The position numbers and the translations under genes were made by a program. The notes beneath the pieces were generated by a model, which was given only the letters and a program-made list of their open reading frames with translations, ran no database searches and was not told the origin of the DNA. From Ignavibacteria bacterium (GTDB lineage: Bacteria > Bacteroidota > Ignavibacteria > Tepidaquicellales > OLB5), in NCBI GenBank assembly GCA_017303675.1, contig JAFLBX010000001.1, positions 1,871,970-1,935,969 on the forward strand: a stretch of 64,000 nt of DNA. Direction: 5' to 3'. Shown here piece after piece: positions 28,486 to 37,034 of this stretch; the first letter of the stretch is position 1, and each line of letters opens with the position of its first letter.

Positions 28486-29064
28486 TTAATTCACTTTCAG
28501 GACTTCGCTAATAGCCTGAACAAAGCTTTCCTTCGGCAGTGCGCCCATAGTCATTTGGGGCTTACCATCCATAGGTATGAATAATATTGAAGGAATGCTG
28601 CGAATGCCGAATACCTGTGCGAGCTCCTGCTCTTCTTCGGTATCTACTTTATATATCTGTACCTTACCGTCATATTCCTTTGATAACTCTTCTAAAACAG
28701 GTGCAACCATTTTGCAAGGACCGCACCAGTCAGCATAAAAATCTATTATTACGGGCTTATCACCTGTGAATTTCCATTCTTTTTCTGTTTCGTAGTTAAA
28801 TACCTTTTGTTTGAATTCTGCTGCTGTTAAATGTACCATTTTAGTGCTTCCTTTTTTATTATTTTCTGTATTGTTATTTCTGCTTCCGGTTGTGTTACTA
28901 TTATTAACATTATTATTTGGTGATTGTTCCGTTTTTACCGGTTTTTGCTGCAAATTGCTGTTATTATAAACTGAACTGTTATCTTTTTTTCCGCATGAAA
29001 CCAGCAGGGCAGCGAAGATTCCGCTTAAAACTAAAAGACTGATAATATTTTTTCTTATTTTCAT
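28486..29064 (-). CDS. Lipid-anchored thioredoxin
   Basis: 192 residues. A signal sequence with lipobox LLVSC gives a lipoprotein; an Asn/Ser-rich linker (about 25-75) follows, then a complete thioredoxin domain with the active site WCGPC (VIIDFYADWCGPCK) and the cis-Pro loop RSIPS. It should reduce disulfides, polysulfides or persulfides on the periplasmic side. Its promoter region contains one of the GTTG-N7-CAAC operator copies 33 bases upstream of the ATG, and it diverges from the octahaem operon, so the two are probably co-regulated. Confidence 0.9.
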   Translation of the reverse strand: MKIRKNIISLLVLSGIFAALLVSCGKKDNSSVYNNSNLQQKPVKTEQSPNNNVNNSNTTGSRNNNTENNKKGSTKMVHLTAAEFKQKVFNYETEKEWKFTGDKPVIIDFYADWCGPCKMVAPVLEELSKEYDGKVQIYKVDTEEEQELAQVFGIRSIPSILFIPMDGKPQMTMGALPKESFVQAISEVLKVN

Positions 29065-29266: not shown

Positions 29267-30796
29267 ATGAAAAATAATAAAAGATCGAAAATTATGAAGA
29301 AAATTACAGGTTTATTACTTTTATCCGTCATACTTATATCAGGAATTTACTCGCAAAACGGCACAAGGCTCATTGGTTTTGATGCCAAAACAACAGGCAG
29401 GGGAGGCGTATCAACCGGTTTTTTTGATAACACAAGCCTTCTTATGACAAATCCCGCAGGTATTTCTTTTCTAAAAGAAAACATGCTGGAAGCGGATTTT
29501 TCTATGATGATGCCGAAGCTGAAGTTTACAAATACAATTAATACCGCTGAAGGAAATTCCAACACTTACCCGCTTCCTTCATTGGGCGTTACTTTTACTC
29601 CAAAAAAATCGAAATTAACTCTAGGGCTTGGTTTCTTCACGAACGGAGGTATGGGTTCAGATTTTAAATTAAATCACCAGTTATTCAAAGACCAGGCAGG
29701 GAATTATGTGCAGCAGGAATATTATTCCAAATACGCAGTAATGCAGGGCGGACCCTCTGTATCATATAAATTGAGCAAAAATTTCTCAGCAGGTATATCA
29801 GCTCATATGTATTACAGCATGATGGATTTCCGTATGCCTTACAGCCTTTCACCTAACGAGCTTAAAGGTGTTGTTAATCCACAAACCGGTATGACATTCG
29901 GTCAGATGTTCTCTGCTCCGCAGAGCCAGGGCGGACTTGGTTACAGCGAAGTAACCGCTTACGCAAAAATGAGCGATCTGACAGCGATAGGGTTCGGCGG
30001 TAAAATTGGACTCGCATATAAAGTAAACGATATGTTCTCGCTCGGTTTAAGCTATACACTTCCGGTCGATCTTACTTACAAGAACGGCAAAGCTGATATG
30101 GATATGACTTACCAGATGAATGATGCATTCGGAAGGGTTGTAACAGGATATATGACCAATTACCCCGGTATAACACAGCAGCAGGCAATGGATTCAGCAA
30201 TGAACGCTTTTTCACAGATGGGAATTGATCTTTCACTGGGTGCAAAAGCAACATATGATCTTGAGAACAAGCTTTCAATGCCTCAGCAGATATCGTTCGG
30301 ATTTTCCTATGCAGCCCCGAACAAAAAATTCCGCTTTGGTATGGACTTTGAATGGCTTAACTGGAAAAAAGCATTTGAGAAAATGGAGCTAAGCATGACA
30401 GGCGGCCAGAATGCTAATATCAACAGAATGATGGGCAATACGGGTTCATTTTCACTTAACTTCCCGCTGGAATGGAAGGATTCATACATTATCCACGCAG
30501 GCGGAGAATATGATATATCCAAAATGTTCACAATGCGTTTAGGCTATACATACGGCACCAACCCGGTTCCTGAATCAACAGTGTTCCCGGTTTTCCCGGC
30601 AATTGTAGAAAACCATATAATGGCAGGCGGAACACTTAACTTTTCACCTAAGTTCGCTGTGAACTTTGCATATGAAATGGCTCTGAAAAAAGAGCTTACA
30701 GCTTCAAATCCGAGTACAGTGGCATCTGAATACAGCAGCAGCACTTCATCGCTTGAAACAATGCTGTTCCATTTATCACTGACCTGGAAGTATTAA
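29267..30796 (+). CDS. OmpP1/FadL-type outer-membrane channel
   Basis: 509 residues from the first ATG; the second ATG at 29294 is an alternative that fits the signal peptide (MKKITGLLLLSVILISGIYS) better and leaves a longer leader. The mature protein has the FadL/TodX pattern: TGRGGVSTGFFDNTSLLMTNPAGISF near the N-terminus, many amphipathic beta strands (GLGFFTNGGMGSDFK, GLSYTLPVDLTYKNG), and an aromatic last strand (MLFHLSLTWKY). Such channels take up hydrophobic molecules. As first gene of a haem/sulfur operon it could let elemental sulfur, polysulfide or another hydrophobic substrate through; that is an inference. A three-repeat operator arrangement controls its promoter. Confidence 0.85.
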   Translation: MKNNKRSKIMKKITGLLLLSVILISGIYSQNGTRLIGFDAKTTGRGGVSTGFFDNTSLLMTNPAGISFLKENMLEADFSMMMPKLKFTNTINTAEGNSNTYPLPSLGVTFTPKKSKLTLGLGFFTNGGMGSDFKLNHQLFKDQAGNYVQQEYYSKYAVMQGGPSVSYKLSKNFSAGISAHMYYSMMDFRMPYSLSPNELKGVVNPQTGMTFGQMFSAPQSQGGLGYSEVTAYAKMSDLTAIGFGGKIGLAYKVNDMFSLGLSYTLPVDLTYKNGKADMDMTYQMNDAFGRVVTGYMTNYPGITQQQAMDSAMNAFSQMGIDLSLGAKATYDLENKLSMPQQISFGFSYAAPNKKFRFGMDFEWLNWKKAFEKMELSMTGGQNANINRMMGNTGSFSLNFPLEWKDSYIIHAGGEYDISKMFTMRLGYTYGTNPVPESTVFPVFPAIVENHIMAGGTLNFSPKFAVNFAYEMALKKELTASNPSTVASEYSSSTSSLETMLFHLSLTWKY

Positions 30797-30869: not shown

Positions 30870-32306
30870 ATGACAAAATTTAAAACTACAGGCTATTTAT
30901 TAATATATTTCGGACTGGCTTTGATATTGCTGGTAACGGCAAGCTCATGCAATAAAGATTCCCGTTCAGATTATAACCCGGTTCCAAAAAAGGTAAATCC
31001 CCTTGAGGGCCGGGTAATTCCTCATTTGGATCACAGCGCATATTTTAAGGATTCAATTGATTCCCCCCAAAAAGTGACACGCAGATGCCTTGAGTGCCAT
31101 CCCAACAGCGGAAGCGAAGTTATGAAAACCGCTCACTGGACCTGGATCAGCGGTGATGTTGAAAGGAACGGAAAAAATATTCCGCTTGGAAAAAAGAACC
31201 AGGTTAATAATTTCTGCATCAGCGTTGTAGGTAACTGGGGTTCATGCGTTACCTGCCATGCGGGATATGGGTGGAGTGATGCAAATTATGATTTCACCAA
31301 AGAAGAAAATGTTGACTGTTTGGTATGCCATGACGGCTCAGGTACATATTCAAAAACAAAGCTTGGCATGCCGAATAAAAATGTTGATCTGCGATTGGTT
31401 GCAGGAAGCGTTCACCGTCCAACACGCGAAAACTGCGGTATATGCCATTTCAGCGGCGGCGGCGGTATGGGTGTAAAACACGGCGACCTTGATGAATCAC
31501 TTTTAAACGCAAATAAAGAGCTTGATTTCCATATGGGCAAGCTAAACTTCCAGTGTGTTGATTGCCATACTACCCAAAACCATGTGATATCAGGCAAAGT
31601 AAATACAACATATACAGAAAAAACCAATGCATCACGTTTCAACTGTGAAAAATGCCATACAGAGCAGCCGCATAAAGACCCAAGGCTGAATAAACATACT
31701 GCAAGGGTTGCATGCCAGACTTGCCATATACCGGAGTTTGCAAAAAAGCTGCCAACAAAGATGATATGGGACTGGTCAAAAGCGGGTGACTCAACCAGGG
31801 TAGATAGTCCGCATGAATATCTTAAAATTAAAGGTGAATTTGTGTATGAAGAGGGCGTAATACCTACTTATACATGGTTCAACGGAAAAATGGACAGGTA
31901 CGTAATTGGTGATAAGCTGGATGGAGAAGAAGAGCATAATATGAATCACCCATTGGGATCACGTGAAGATAAAAATGCCAAGATATGGCCGTTCAAAGTT
32001 CACCACGCAACACAGCCTTATGATGAAGTTAATAATATTATAATCCCCCCGATTACCAGCGGAGAAGGCGGCTACTGGACAAAATTTGACTGGGCATATG
32101 CAATTTCAACGGGAGCCAAATTAAACAATCTGCCATACAGCGGAAAGTACGGTTTTACAAAAACAAAAATGTACTGGCCTATCACACATATGGTAACGAC
32201 TGGTAAGAACGCATTAACCTGTACAGATTGCCATTCCAAAGGCGGCCGTTTGAACTGGGCAGAGCTTGGATATAAAAATGACCCGCTTCAGGGACCCGGT
32301 AAATAA
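30870..32306 (+). CDS. Octahaem cytochrome, tetrathionate-reductase family
   Basis: 478 residues. The N-terminus is a lipoprotein signal (LLVTASSC). Eight haem sites follow in order: CLECH, CVTCH, CLVCH, CGICH, CVDCH, CEKCH, CQTCH and CTDCH. The part NFCISVVGNWGSCVTCHAGY and NVDCLVCHDGSGTYSK resembles the octahaem tetrathionate reductase of Shewanella, which also reduces nitrite and hydroxylamine in vitro. It is the central redox enzyme of the operon. The Lys that replaces His at the active haem of Shewanella Otr must be checked by alignment. Substrate here could be tetrathionate, another sulfur oxyanion or nitrogen compounds. Confidence 0.88.
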   Translation: MTKFKTTGYLLIYFGLALILLVTASSCNKDSRSDYNPVPKKVNPLEGRVIPHLDHSAYFKDSIDSPQKVTRRCLECHPNSGSEVMKTAHWTWISGDVERNGKNIPLGKKNQVNNFCISVVGNWGSCVTCHAGYGWSDANYDFTKEENVDCLVCHDGSGTYSKTKLGMPNKNVDLRLVAGSVHRPTRENCGICHFSGGGGMGVKHGDLDESLLNANKELDFHMGKLNFQCVDCHTTQNHVISGKVNTTYTEKTNASRFNCEKCHTEQPHKDPRLNKHTARVACQTCHIPEFAKKLPTKMIWDWSKAGDSTRVDSPHEYLKIKGEFVYEEGVIPTYTWFNGKMDRYVIGDKLDGEEEHNMNHPLGSREDKNAKIWPFKVHHATQPYDEVNNIIIPPITSGEGGYWTKFDWAYAISTGAKLNNLPYSGKYGFTKTKMYWPITHMVTTGKNALTCTDCHSKGGRLNWAELGYKNDPLQGPGK

Positions 32307-32327: not shown

Positions 32328-32864
32328 ATGAAAAATAAACCAAAGCCATATAAAAATCCATATTTTGCAGGCGCAATTTTGGGTGTGGTATTATTCAGCG
32401 CTTATGCTTTAACGCACAGCGGCCTGGGCGCATCAGGTGCGATAAGCCGCATACATGTTGCCATTACAAAATTATTTTCACAGGCACATGTTGATATGGT
32501 AAGCACGTTCGCTTTAATGGGAGCGGGTGATACAAATGCGCTTGACCATCCAAGTGTATTTCTTTTAATAGGCACATTTGCCGGTGGAATGATATCCGCG
32601 CTGATAAACGGCAGGTTTAAGCCTGAAATTTTCAAAGGCCCGCAGATCTCCAACTTGCAGCGCCTTATCTTCGCTCTGATAGGCGGCATTATAATGGGCT
32701 ACGGCGCAAGATTTGCACGCGGCTGCACTTCAGGGCAGGCACTCTCAGGCGGCGCAGTACTATCGCTGGGCAGCTGGGCTTTTATGTTCAGTGTTTTTAT
32801 AGGCGGCTATGCCGTAGCTTACTTTGTCCGCAGGCTGTGGACTGAACCAAATAAATCAATATAA
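32328..32864 (+). CDS. YeeE/YedE sulfur transport half-protein 1
   Basis: 178 residues with about four membrane helices. The family element is GYGARFARGCTSGQALSGG, with the invariant Cys that carries thiosulfate or sulfane sulfur in TsuA-type transporters. YeeE/YedE halves come in pairs and move thiosulfate or persulfide. Start is 21 bases after the octahaem gene; the partner follows 11 bases downstream. Localised to the inner membrane. Confidence 0.85.
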   Translation: MKNKPKPYKNPYFAGAILGVVLFSAYALTHSGLGASGAISRIHVAITKLFSQAHVDMVSTFALMGAGDTNALDHPSVFLLIGTFAGGMISALINGRFKPEIFKGPQISNLQRLIFALIGGIIMGYGARFARGCTSGQALSGGAVLSLGSWAFMFSVFIGGYAVAYFVRRLWTEPNKSI

Positions 32865-32875
32865 CAAAGATAATC

Positions 32876-34072
32876 ATGTTACCAATAGATGTAATTGCTT
32901 TACTGGGAAAATTCTGGGGATACGCCGTTTTTGTTCTGATAGGCATAGGGTTTGGTGTATCACTTGAGCTTGCCGGATTCGGAGATTCAAGGCGGCTTGC
33001 GGCACAGTTCTATTTAAAGGATATGACAGTACTGAAAACTATGTTTACCGGAATTGTTGTTGCTGCAGTTTTAATTTTTATGTCTTCAGCAATCGGTATT
33101 CTTGATTTTTCCCAAATATCAGTAACCCAGACATTTTTATGGCCGGGTATTGTTGGGGGATTAATCATGGGTGTTGGATTTATAGTTGGTGGTTACTGCC
33201 CGGGCACATCAGTAGTTTCAGCAGCCAGCCTTAAGATAGATGGAATGTTTTTCCTGACGGGAACTATACTTGGTGCAGGAATTTTCGGTGAGTCACTTCC
33301 TGCATTCAGTGATTTCTGGAACTCTTCTTTTACCGAAAGATACCTGCTTTCTGACTGGCTTGGATGGTCAATAGGCGCAACTTTGTTTGCTGTTGTTCTG
33401 ATGGCAATAATGATGTTTTACGGCGCAGAAAAAACAGAAGAATTTTTCAGGAATAAAAACTCCGGAAAGAAATGGTCATGGAAAATTTCAAAACGCTCCT
33501 ATACTGCCGGCGCTGCTGCCATGGTTGCTGCAGCAGCAATTATATGGCTGATAGGCCAGCCTGACCCTGTGAGAAAATGGAGCCTGATGGAAGGCAAATA
33601 CGGTAGCCAGCTTGCATCACGAGATGTCTTTATTCACCCGCTGGAATATGTAAAAACGTATAATGAAGCTGCTATAAAGCTGGTTACGCTAGATCTTCGT
33701 ACACCGGAGGAATTCGGTAAATTCCACCTTTCTGGAGCTGAGAGTGTTAAGCCTGAAGATATGCTGAAACCAGATTTTATAGCTCCATTGGCGCAACTTC
33801 CGGCGCAGGGTGTAGTTGTGCTGATTGCAGATGAAGATTCCGTTTCAGTGCAGGCATGGAAGTATTTGAAGGTTCAGGGTGTGAACAATGTTTACATCCT
33901 CGAAAACGGGTTAAGGGACTGGAATAAATTATTTGACGGAAAATCCATTTCAGGAAAATCAATAAACATTTCATCACCTCCGGCAGAAGTCCTAAAGCTT
34001 TTTCCGAAGGATGCATATACACCAAAAATCAAGATCAGCACTAAAAAACGTTCAGGCGGACTTTGCAGCTAA
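32876..34072 (+). CDS. YeeE/YedE half-protein 2 fused to a rhodanese-like domain
   Basis: 398 residues. N-terminal part (about 1-245) is the second YeeE/YedE half, with GIGFGVSLELAGFGD and VGGYCPGTSVVSAA, the Cys motif of sulfur relay. After a further helix (about 215-235), residues 262-355 form a rhodanese fold (LDLRTPEEFGKFHLSGA), but the catalytic loop reads LIADEDSVSV where active rhodaneses have C-R-x-G, so no catalytic Cys is present. The protein ends in S-G-G-L-C-S, a free Cys that might take over the role. The domain probably binds or hands on a sulfur carrier. Confidence 0.8.
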   Translation: MLPIDVIALLGKFWGYAVFVLIGIGFGVSLELAGFGDSRRLAAQFYLKDMTVLKTMFTGIVVAAVLIFMSSAIGILDFSQISVTQTFLWPGIVGGLIMGVGFIVGGYCPGTSVVSAASLKIDGMFFLTGTILGAGIFGESLPAFSDFWNSSFTERYLLSDWLGWSIGATLFAVVLMAIMMFYGAEKTEEFFRNKNSGKKWSWKISKRSYTAGAAAMVAAAAIIWLIGQPDPVRKWSLMEGKYGSQLASRDVFIHPLEYVKTYNEAAIKLVTLDLRTPEEFGKFHLSGAESVKPEDMLKPDFIAPLAQLPAQGVVVLIADEDSVSVQAWKYLKVQGVNNVYILENGLRDWNKLFDGKSISGKSINISSPPAEVLKLFPKDAYTPKIKISTKKRSGGLCS

Positions 34073-34092: not shown

Positions 34093-35984
34093 ATGAAAAT
34101 TTTATTTACGTTACTAAATTAACTCTTTTACCGGTAATTTTCAGCTTAGCTGCAAATTACACTTTTGGGCAGAATAATAATGGCAGCACATTTACCAATA
34201 ATGAATGTATGCAATGCCACCAGAAGAATATATCCGCTGATCTTTATAATAAGTCCGTTCACAGTTCCTTAATGTGTACAGCATGCCATCAAAAGGATGA
34301 AACAAAACCCGTTGATAAGCTTACAGCCGGTAAAAATACATGTATTGTATCGTTTAAGCCTTCAAACTGTACAAGCTGCCACAGCTCTGTTGCAAAGGAG
34401 CACGAAACAAGCGTGCATAATTCCGCAAGGCTGCCTGTAACATGTTCCAAATGCCATTCCGATATTCATAAGATAACTTCGATAAAGAATAATAAGATCG
34501 CATCTTCAAAACTTTGCAGCAGCTGCCATGAAAATGAATCGGTTTTTTTCAAATCGGTACACTTCATAGCGTTAGAAAGCGGAAGCAAAGATGCTCCCGG
34601 CTGCACTGACTGCCACAATAAACATGCAATCAGCCGAATTGATAATGTTTCGCAGGGCAGGACTTTCCACACGCAGACTTGCATGAAATGCCATGCAGAT
34701 GCAGAAATGATGAAACGCAGCAATGTTACAACCATTGCCCCGAAATCTTATTTTGAAAGCTACCACGGAAAAAATATCAGGCTCGGCTACCCTGAAAAAG
34801 TTGCCGGATGCGCTGATTGCCACAGCTCTCACAGCATACTTCCGGCAAATGATTCAAACTCGACAGTTAATGCAGTTAATTTAACCAATACCTGCAAACA
34901 GTGTCATGTTAATGCCGGTGACGGTTTTTCAAAATTCATTGCTCATGCTGATACAGGTAACAGTGAAAAATATCCTTTGCTGTACTGGGTAACAATATTT
35001 ATGAACTCACTGCTCGCCGGCACATTTCTTTTCTTCTGGGTTCATTCATTACTTTGGGTTATAAGGGGCTATATAGAAAAGAAACGAAACAGGAACGCGG
35101 AAGATTTTTCAGGCGGGAATGATATTGCAGATCGCAGAATAAAACATAAAGTTTACAGGCGTTTCAGGCCGGTTCACATTACTTTGCACCTGTTTGTAGT
35201 AACAAGCTTTCTTGCTCTTGCCTTAACAGGTTTGCCTTTAAAGTTCAATTATACCGGCTGGGGTAAAACACTTATGGATTACCTGGGAGGTATAAGCAGT
35301 GCAGGGATAATTCACAGGATTGCAGCTATTGTTACTTTCGTGTATTTCTTTGTAACACTGTTTATGAGCATACGCTTTTTGTTCTCAAAAAAGCATTCCA
35401 AAGCTTCGTTTTTAAAGAGACTTTTCGGACCAGATTCACTTTTTATTAACCGAAAAGATATCAATGATATAAAAGCAATGTTCCGCTGGTTCTTCTTCCG
35501 CGGTCCCAAGCCATCATTTGAACGATGGACATACTGGGAAAAATTTGACTTCCTGGCAGTGTTCTGGGGCGTTGCAATTATCGGCTCAAGCGGTTTAGTT
35601 CTCTGGTTCCCTGAATTTTTCAGCTCGTTTTTGCCCGGCTGGATATTTAACCTTGCAACAATAATACACTCAGATGAAGCTCTGCTTGCTGTTGGATTCA
35701 TTTTTACGGTACACTTTTTTAATACACATTTGAGAGTGGAAAAATTTCCAATGGATTTTGTGATATTCAACGGCCAGGTTACAGAAAGGGAAATGGTACA
35801 TGAAAGAGGAGAGCAGTGGAAACGGTATAATGAAGAGAAAACCGCAGAAAAATATGAAGTTAAAAAACCAACACCGCTGTATCTTGATATTGCATTAAGG
35901 GTATTCGGGCTATTGGCTGTGTTAACCGGTACTGTTCTGGCAGTACTGATATTTTATTCTATATTAGGGCAGGGTTTCCACTGA
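34093..35984 (+). CDS. Nonahaem cytochrome with C-terminal cytochrome b-like membrane part (frameshift in signal peptide)
   Basis: The N-terminal half has nine CxxCH sites (CMQCH, CTACH, CTSCH, CSKCH, CSSCH, CTDCH, CMKCH, CADCH, CKQCH); the C-terminal half has six membrane helices with spaced His residues (HLFVVTSFLAL, IHRIAAIVTF, TVHFFNTHLR), as in di-haem cytochrome b quinol dehydrogenases. It should link the quinone pool to the octahaem enzyme. The first Cys of the first haem site (34206-34208) precedes any in-frame ATG. An ATG at 34093 reads M-K-I-L-F-T-L-L then a stop, in another frame; adding one A to the AAA at 34116-34118 would join it to K-L-T-L-L-P-V-I-F-S-L-A-A, a perfect signal peptide. 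Either a true mutation or a base-call error in a short A run. Confidence 0.82.
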
Positions 35985-36049: not shown

Positions 36050-36064
36050 GTTGCCTGTAACAAC
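36050..36064. promoter_or_regulatory. Candidate MarR operator, site 4
   Basis: GTTGCCTGTAACAAC (GTTG-N7-CAAC) ends 10 bases before the marR ATG, the place for self-control. Confidence 0.68.
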
Positions 36065-36074
36065 ATATAAATAT

Positions 36075-36494
36075 ATGAATAAAGGTATTGTAGAGCTGAT
36101 ATTTGAGCTTAAATTCACCTGCCAGGCAAAGGAAGAAAGTATCCGTGAAGAGCTTAAGCTTTCTCCTTCTGAGTATCGCGGGCTGCTCTCGATAAATCCG
36201 GGAGAAGTTAAATCATGCATGCAGATGTCAAACATGATGGGTCTTTCAAAATCACGCGGAAGCAGAGTAATTGATAAGCTGATTGAGCACGGTTATTTAA
36301 CTGAAGCTAAAGGTGAAGATGATAAAAGGATATATAATGTAAAGCTTACTTCTAAAGGCCAAAACGCAATAAAACGTATCAACGCTGTTATGAGCGAATG
36401 CGAAAGAGCCATCTTAAAGAACGTCCCTGCTGATGAGCTTCATAATTTTACAAAAACACTTCATAAGATCTCTGAAATAATTACGCCAAACTGA
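36075..36494 (+). CDS. MarR family transcriptional regulator
   Basis: The start is ATG 36075; an upstream TTG in frame at 36051 falls inside the operator. The 139-residue winged-helix protein has the MarR layout: dimerisation helix, then LSPSEYRGLLSINPGEV, recognition helix NMMGLSKSRGSRVIDKLIEHG, and the wing with GEDDKRIYNVKLTSKG (conserved Asp-Lys-Arg). It has three Cys (16, 48, 109), which could sense oxidants or persulfides. Five GTTG-N7-CAAC sites at nearby promoters, one before this gene, make it the obvious candidate regulator of the thioredoxin, octahaem and OsmC units. The ligand is unknown. Confidence 0.88.
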   Translation: MNKGIVELIFELKFTCQAKEESIREELKLSPSEYRGLLSINPGEVKSCMQMSNMMGLSKSRGSRVIDKLIEHGYLTEAKGEDDKRIYNVKLTSKGQNAIKRINAVMSECERAILKNVPADELHNFTKTLHKISEIITPN

Positions 36495-36629: not shown

Positions 36630-37034
36630 ATGAAAATGGAAATTTTTTTTGAAGACGGGAAAAAAGTAAATGCCCGTTATAACGGAATAACTATTAAAAC
36701 CGATCAGCCCGTTGAAGCCGGCGGAAAAGGTTCTGCCCCGGCGCCATTTGACCTGTTCCTTGCTTCAATTGGTACCTGCGCAGGAATTTATGTAAAATCA
36801 TTCTGCAGCCAGCGCGGAATCCCCACTGAGGATATCCGGATTATTCAGTCTATGGAATATGATTTTGAGAAAGGGCTCATTGGTAAAATTAAGCTGGATA
36901 TCGAGCTTCCTGAATCTTTCCCCGTTAAATATAAAGATGCAGTTATAAATGTTGCTAATTTATGCGCAGTTAAAAAACATTTATTGAATCCCCCCGAAAT
37001 TGAAGTTAAAGCAAATATTAGCGAATTAGTTTAA
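36630..37034 (+). CDS. OsmC/Ohr-family peroxidase-like protein
   Basis: 134 residues, cytoplasmic. The OsmC fold is shown by GKGSAPAPFDLFLASIGTCAG, where the first catalytic Cys lies, and NLCAVKKHLLNPP with the second. Paired Cys residues let these proteins reduce organic hydroperoxides and, in some members, persulfides. Its own promoter carries a GTTG-N7-CAAC site, so it belongs to the same putative regulon as the sulfur/haem operon; a role in sulfane-sulfur or peroxide stress is consistent. Confidence 0.88.
   Translation: MKMEIFFEDGKKVNARYNGITIKTDQPVEAGGKGSAPAPFDLFLASIGTCAGIYVKSFCSQRGIPTEDIRIIQSMEYDFEKGLIGKIKLDIELPESFPVKYKDAVINVANLCAVKKHLLNPPEIEVKANISELV

Follow-up and report, generated by a model that had tools for sequence, protein, structure and literature searches.

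The question that this locus raises is what role can be played by a rhodanese domain that is joined to half of a YeeE-type sulfur channel, has no cysteine in its active-site loop and is followed by a cysteine almost at the end of the chain. In the window (the whole stretch of 64,000 nucleotides analysed here, from an Ignavibacteria bacterium) such a protein is encoded at 32876–34072 on the + strand, in an ORF of 398 aa with an ATG start and a TAA stop. It consists of a YeeE half of the type seen in the N-terminal half of TsuA, an extra TM helix, a Cys-less rhodanese domain and a GGLCS tail. The sequence-only reading of this DNA had proposed that the domain has become a carrier or docking part of the transporter, or that its active residue has shifted; the census of relatives and the Cys/Sec exchange described below support this, the carriage of sulfur itself being an inference.

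The rhodanese domain and its terminal cysteine

The fusion protein contains LDLRTPEEFGKFHLSGA and later VVVLIADEDSVSVQAW, the sequence of its rhodanese loop, and ends in KKRSGGLCS. Sulf_transp (PF04143, E 4.6e-17, residues 43–237) and Rhodanese (PF00581, E 1.8e-9, residues 269–351, 38.3 bits vs a cut-off of 22.2) were its sole Pfam matches at E<=0.001, so that no SoxY domain was detected at that threshold, and a phmmer search found no solved relative of the YeeE part. An AlphaFold2 model of the fusion, built from 33 sequences, had a mean pLDDT of 73.5, with values mostly of 80–93 in the rhodanese-fold domain (33680–33928, +), and Foldseek matched the modelled domain to solved rhodaneses (best match 3fnj, prob 1.00). 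The tail (about residues 390–398) was predicted to be disordered, the pLDDT averaging 34 over residues 391–398. Thus the structure prediction for which the sequence-only reading had called gave a confident rhodanese domain but left the tail unplaced in the model. The tail is also basic, with a mean of 4.8 K+R vs 1.2 D+E in the 18 residues preceding the cysteine (142 rows).

The former active-site loop corresponds to residues 315–327 (33818–33856, +) and in the family is acidic, of the [ND]-x-E type. When the family profile was aligned with E. coli GlpE (1gmx), the cysteine of the GlpE loop VMCYHGNSS, which we take to be the GlpE catalytic residue, fell on Ala318 of the fusion, a position occupied by S, A, G, T or D in the relatives. 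The whole protein has two cysteines only, Cys108 in the channel motif GGYCPGTS (codon 33197–33199, +) and Cys397 in the tail (codon 34064–34066, +). A rhodanese fold whose loop has no catalytic cysteine, and a cysteine near the end of the chain, had both been read from the sequence alone, and both were confirmed.

To gather relatives, named genomes were scanned with a pattern (38 loci), and searches were made of 391 genomes of the same class as the source genome and of 396 genomes from the class to which a Chloroflexi relative belongs; from the class searches a subset of matches was chosen, and the DNA around them was taken for likeness to the fusion or to one relative (L061), regardless of their tails. 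Removal of duplicates reduced 172 rows to 144 distinct C-termini, and exclusion of one open C-terminus (L098) left 143 complete ones, 129 fused to YeeE and 14 belonging to rhodanese-only segments. In-frame TGA codons were scored at the tail as Sec, and frames were cut at every other TGA (read-through of TGA joins some upstream genes). Cys or in-frame TGA was found within the last three residues of 142/143 of these C-termini, including the 14 segments unfused to YeeE, and no homologue (0/143) had a cysteine at loop positions 315–327. The sole exception at the tail, which was scored as a failure, has an ambiguous residue, from an ambiguous base, directly before an odd end (L144). By the account given in the sequence-only reading, homologues with a normal loop or without the terminal cysteine would have refuted it; the alignment that it proposed showed Cys-less loops throughout, and with the tail so widely kept the refutation failed. 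The tails were of several types: GGC in 49, GGCG in 29, GGLCS and GGGCG in 15 each, GGGGCG in 11, GC in 10, GGGUG in 5 and others in 9, with EGC also among the family ends.

Chance can be ruled out as the origin of the tail cysteine: of 649 further ORFs in these loci and in the window that are 150 aa or longer (the fusion excluded), only nine have a cysteine in their last three residues. Among the seven other rhodanese domains of the source genome, none ended in cysteine and six kept the loop cysteine. The one that did not (L193, C2:1413373–1413639) belongs to a small protein that has a possible lipoprotein cysteine, the loop IIIDENGRKA and no Cys tail. In eight class relatives (L012, L013, L020, L022–L024, L026 and L030) a separate rhodanese protein ending in KKK(K)EGC was seen, and no fusion. 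The trait spans phyla and so cannot be a quirk of one lineage: judged by sequence, the combination of a Cys-less loop with a terminal cysteine is a rule of this family, which is linked to an octaheme cytochrome and extends across Bacteroidota, Myxococcota, Acidobacteriota and Chloroflexota.

In-frame TGA codons at the two cysteine positions

In five Chloroflexota-type genomes (Chloroflexi MAG J033, here G391, and G720, G519, G595 and G636) the codon of the tail cysteine is TGA, followed by a single Gly codon and a stop (GGG-U-G-stop), which is TAA or TAG in three of the five. The channel position is Cys or TGA in 129/129 fused homologues, and the three with TGA in GG(F/Y)CPGT are again from G391, G720 and G519. 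All eight in-frame TGAs in these five diverged species thus fall on the two invariant cysteine positions. An alternative code in which TGA is read as Trp was ruled out, as the TGAs occur at these two positions alone and TGA still terminates two of the five genes.

A bSECIS-type hairpin follows each of the tail TGAs, its loop starting 22–23 nt from the start of the codon (5/5), whereas none of 136 Cys tails has one at that spacing. The apical loop has 3 nt with G as its first base (GTT or GGC), and C-G/A-U exchange between species occurs in the stem. Each channel TGA is likewise followed by a hairpin, GGTAGC-GGTC-GCTACC, with the loop at 23 nt (3/3, vs 0/124 channel Cys sites). A looser hairpin criterion was also met by 10 of the 136 Cys tails and four of the 124 channel Cys sites, none of them at 22–23 nt. 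In its accessible portion, PMC13188914 gives a bSECIS model with a loop of 3–9 nt, a G in the first two bases, a spacing of 16–37 nt and an MFE <= -7.5; these constraints are satisfied at 8/8 TGA sites, with MFE values from -11.3 to -29.2. The z-scores of the tail hairpins are uneven (-5.4, -3.5, -1.7, -1.4 and -0.9, three of the five being modest), and consequently their fixed position is the better argument.

A tRNA-Sec was detected in four of the five genomes with TGA tails and SelB in three; neither was found in G519, and SelB was not found in G595. As SelB was present in as many as 54 of the 66 genomes tested in all, finding it merely permits Sec. In a tree of the 129 fused proteins the five with TGA tails form one clade (SH-aLRT 92), and the change from Cys to Sec can therefore be counted only once. 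From the sequences, the putative change is a single event at the tail, later extended to the channel, and it is probable that the tail TGA encodes selenocysteine. In comparative work, Cys/Sec exchange is what usually marks a cysteine as chemically reactive.

Sec was not seen in the octaheme cytochromes of these loci (in-frame TGA in 0/91 matched stretches) or in the partner YeeE half, where the five species with TGA tails keep the cysteine of RGCTSG; two matches to TGA motifs in the scan of the partner half (L046 and L181) lay, judged by context, in unrelated reading frames and were discarded. Separately, short stand-alone YeeE halves in four Chloroflexota-type genomes (L117–L120 in G513, G704, G651 and G645) have an in-frame TGA at GFUPGTC, each with a bSECIS-like hairpin after it, and represent a second candidate selenoprotein. 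A further locus (L116) has the motif GYUPGTC.

The operon and the systems that it resembles

In the window the gene order is octaheme cytochrome, YeeE half, fusion, multihaem c/b cytochrome, all on the + strand. The first gene (30870–32306) encodes an octaheme cytochrome c of the tetrathionate reductase family, with eight CXXCH motifs and clear matches to TIGR04315 (551.6 bits, cut-off 375) and to 1sp3 (E 8.1e-130). It also has a conserved-looking extra cysteine in NNFCI, outside the haem motifs, which was seen in two other loci (L059 and L132). The partner YeeE half (32328–32864) matches the C-terminal part of Sulf_transp, and its single cysteine is Cys133 of RGCTSG. The two halves score 63.0 and 85.4 bits against Sulf_transp (cut-off 27), and there is one cysteine in each half. 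Downstream of the fusion lies a multihaem cytochrome c/b561-like membrane cytochrome (34209–35984), a likely quinone link, whose match to Ni_hydr_CYTB (27.5 bits) is slightly below the cut-off of 30.1; in loci from other phyla (L059, L132) the octaheme and YeeE genes are separated by a b561-type cytochrome, which may or may not include a multihaem part.

An octaheme match adjoins the fusion in 91 of 98 loci (L063 and L167 being from one genome). Of the seven loci without it, four are on contigs that end too soon (L040, L058, L061 and L067), two are YeeE pairs lacking the fusion (L068 and L069), and one, on a contig of 7.1 kb, has a YeeE pair and, as a separate protein, a rhodanese (L124). In the class sample, a comparison made by hand gave a YeeE match in 122 of 133 octaheme-bearing genomes vs 180 of 391 overall, with 11 octaheme-bearing genomes having no YeeE match.

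The module is flanked in much of the genus by a thioredoxin-like probable lipoprotein (28486–29064) and by genes for a MarR-family regulator (36051–36494, +) and an OsmC-like protein (36630–37034, +), the latter two being downstream neighbours at the genus level; these flanking genes could belong to the same sulfur response. The upstream neighbour in the window is an OmpP1/FadL-type outer-membrane protein (29267–30796, +). In one genome of the same genus (G026, L156, 2396–7392) an operon of the other type occupies the same genomic place, with the same Trx, MarR and OsmC flanks (63–83% identical) and a fusion that is 29% identical and has a GGC tail; here, it seems, one whole module has been swapped for another. 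The source genome, which is 100% complete, gave no match to TusA (PF01206) in a search that was positive in 11 of 14 controls, and thus no usual cytoplasmic acceptor is available.

The predicted cytoplasmic loops of the fused proteins are richer in Lys+Arg than the outside loops in all 129 cases (means 7.8 vs 1.5), and because of this positive-inside pattern the rhodanese domain and tail are predicted to lie in the periplasm. In TsuA–TsuB, according to the available part of PMC11073785, thiosulfate is relayed along three channel cysteines and on to YeeD, whose cysteine is a 'fourth cysteine' at the exit to the cytoplasm. The present proteins resemble TsuA (YeeE) and TsuB (YeeD) of Spirochaeta thermophila and E. 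coli (8k1r, 6leo) in belonging to the Sulf_transp fold family and in having a cysteine in both channel halves, and the partner half aligns to TsuA residues 244–331. However, the channel here is split into two genes in permuted order, only Cys108 is conserved in the fused half (129 rows), with no counterpart of the third, cytoplasmic-side cysteine of TsuA, and there is no TusA or YeeD; a periplasmic rhodanese with a Cys tail, as predicted, stands in place of the cytoplasmic YeeD.

A C-terminal GGCGG arm with a sulfur-binding cysteine has been described for SoxY (PMC6067878, as far as the consulted extract goes), and the fusion has a comparable carrier-like Gly-Gly-Cys arm, for which a periplasmic position is a prediction. 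Unlike SoxY, it lacks a SoxY domain and uses a rhodanese scaffold anchored to a transporter; family tails are mostly of the GG(L)C(G/S) type, and full GGCGG occurs in one locus only (L054), with no sulfur-binding data. Import of sulfur from a periplasmic carrier has been proposed for the YeeE-like SoxT of Hyphomicrobium (PMC11582611, seen in part), where SoxYZ, a soluble protein in its own right, is the carrier, whereas the presumed arm here belongs to the transporter itself. The neighbouring cytochrome clearly falls in the Otr family (1sp3, TIGR04315), but in the partial literature found Otr is not described as sharing an operon with split YeeE genes and a rhodanese that has a Cys tail. In vitro, nitrite and hydroxylamine are also substrates of Otr, to go by the title of a cited paper, and sulfur may therefore not be the sole substrate.

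Selenoproteins are already known from both the YeeE and the octaheme families: the text of PMC13188914, in so far as it was available, lists a YeeE/YedE selenoprotein from earlier work with Sec in GUxSG (WP_012471001.1) and a GenBank-annotated Sec-containing member of the octaheme family (WP_331457571.1). These resemble the present case in placing Sec in a sulfur channel and in a form of the octaheme family; however, here Sec would be at GG(F/Y)UPGT and at the C-terminal GGGUG, and neither motif was found in that text. Both known selenoproteins are consistent with reactive sulfur chemistry on this route, although no in-frame TGA occurs in the 91 octaheme stretches here.

A possible sulfur carrier within the transporter

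What has been observed is a set of conserved sequence features, the exchange of Cys for TGA together with bSECIS-type hairpins, and the association of the genes. The reading that we favour, with some reserve and with no biochemical evidence for any step, is that the tail is a membrane-anchored, SoxY-like arm on whose cysteine sulfur travels between the YeeE pore and the octaheme cytochrome; the periplasmic side, the covalent attachment of sulfur to the cysteine, the partnership with the octaheme protein, the direction and the chemistry are all inferred within it. The fusion would be one half of a split YeeE/TsuA-type sulfur channel carrying on its periplasmic face a rhodanese fold that serves as scaffold instead of enzyme, the reactive thiol having left the rhodanese loop for a C-terminal arm that is flexible, basic and rich in glycine (GGLCS here; elsewhere GGC, GGCG or EGC). 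The arm would bind sulfur covalently, as a persulfide or S-sulfonate on Cys397, and swing between the active site of the adjacent octaheme cytochrome and the mouth of the pore, where Cys397 would act as an entrance cysteine, a mirror of the 'fourth cysteine' of YeeD at the cytoplasmic exit. The channel itself would offer one cysteine per half, Cys133 of the partner and Cys108 of the fusion. Coupled to the quinone pool through the b-type cytochrome of the operon, the octaheme cytochrome would add electrons to the carried sulfur or remove them; the favoured direction is reductive S–S cleavage by a respiratory reductase, driven by these two cytochromes, with the product released or imported.

The Cys/Sec exchange also fits a redox or metal-binding cysteine, and with a multihaem cytochrome as its neighbour the tail cysteine might be a disulfide partner, or a ligand of haem or copper, that has its role at the octaheme cytochrome or in channel gating and carries no sulfur. 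This is a serious but improbable alternative, as the only other conserved cysteine of the fusion is Cys108 of the channel, and a disordered basic tail with a Gly-Gly-Cys end beside a sulfur channel resembles the carriers SoxY (GGCGG) and LbpA (PMC6067878, from the part at hand). It is less plausible still, though conceivable, that the tail is a docking or signal peptide and that the rhodanese domain with its tail merely senses periplasmic sulfur species and gates the channel. The transporter SoxT1B takes part in signalling in Hyphomicrobium (PMC11582611, in its accessible part) and a MarR regulator gene is adjacent within the genus; however, MarR is outside the widely conserved module, and the near-absolute conservation of the cysteine together with the use of Sec favours chemistry over plain docking.

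Assembly errors or pseudogene stops would make the TGA codons meaningless and leave the tail cysteine as something merely inherited, and it is true that one of the five genomes is a MAG and that G519 is without detected Sec machinery. This seems very improbable when eight TGAs fall on two invariant cysteine positions in five diverged species, with hairpins at fixed spacing and, in three of the five, a TAA or TAG one Gly codon later; even without the Sec data, the tail cysteine is still found in 137/143. Finally, a sorting or anchoring signal, by lipidation or covalent tethering, is barely credible, even though in nearly all members the cysteine follows glycines at the very end of the chain, as the fusion is already an integral membrane protein, many members have one to two residues after the cysteine, and selenocysteine would bring no benefit.

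A literature search, which left subscription journals mostly uncovered and other sources consulted in part, returned no description of a YeeE/rhodanese/octaheme module, its conserved Cys tail or a Sec form of it. The kinds of part combined here, a YeeE transporter and a C-terminal Cys carrier arm, are known; the evidence is good for a conserved feature, and there is none yet for the chemistry. The wider proposal is one on which we remain evenly divided: an undescribed respiratory sulfur module in which a YeeE transporter owns its carrier, and an inactive periplasmic rhodanese with a swinging Cys/Sec arm presents sulfur to an octaheme cytochrome as a convergent counterpart of SoxY. The carrier-arm model can be tested on single residues, Cys133 of the partner half and Cys108 and Cys397 of the fusion. 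If it is true, many octaheme 'tetrathionate reductases' could have arm-bound sulfur, carried by a protein, as their natural substrate; this would explain why a sulfur channel travels with octaheme enzymes and would offer a direct functional test. There would also be a new selenoprotein family, in which the cysteines of both channel and arm have turned to Sec, marking the residues expected on the sulfur path, and SoxY and the soluble rhodaneses would be joined by a third kind of periplasmic sulfur carrier, one that is built into the transporter.
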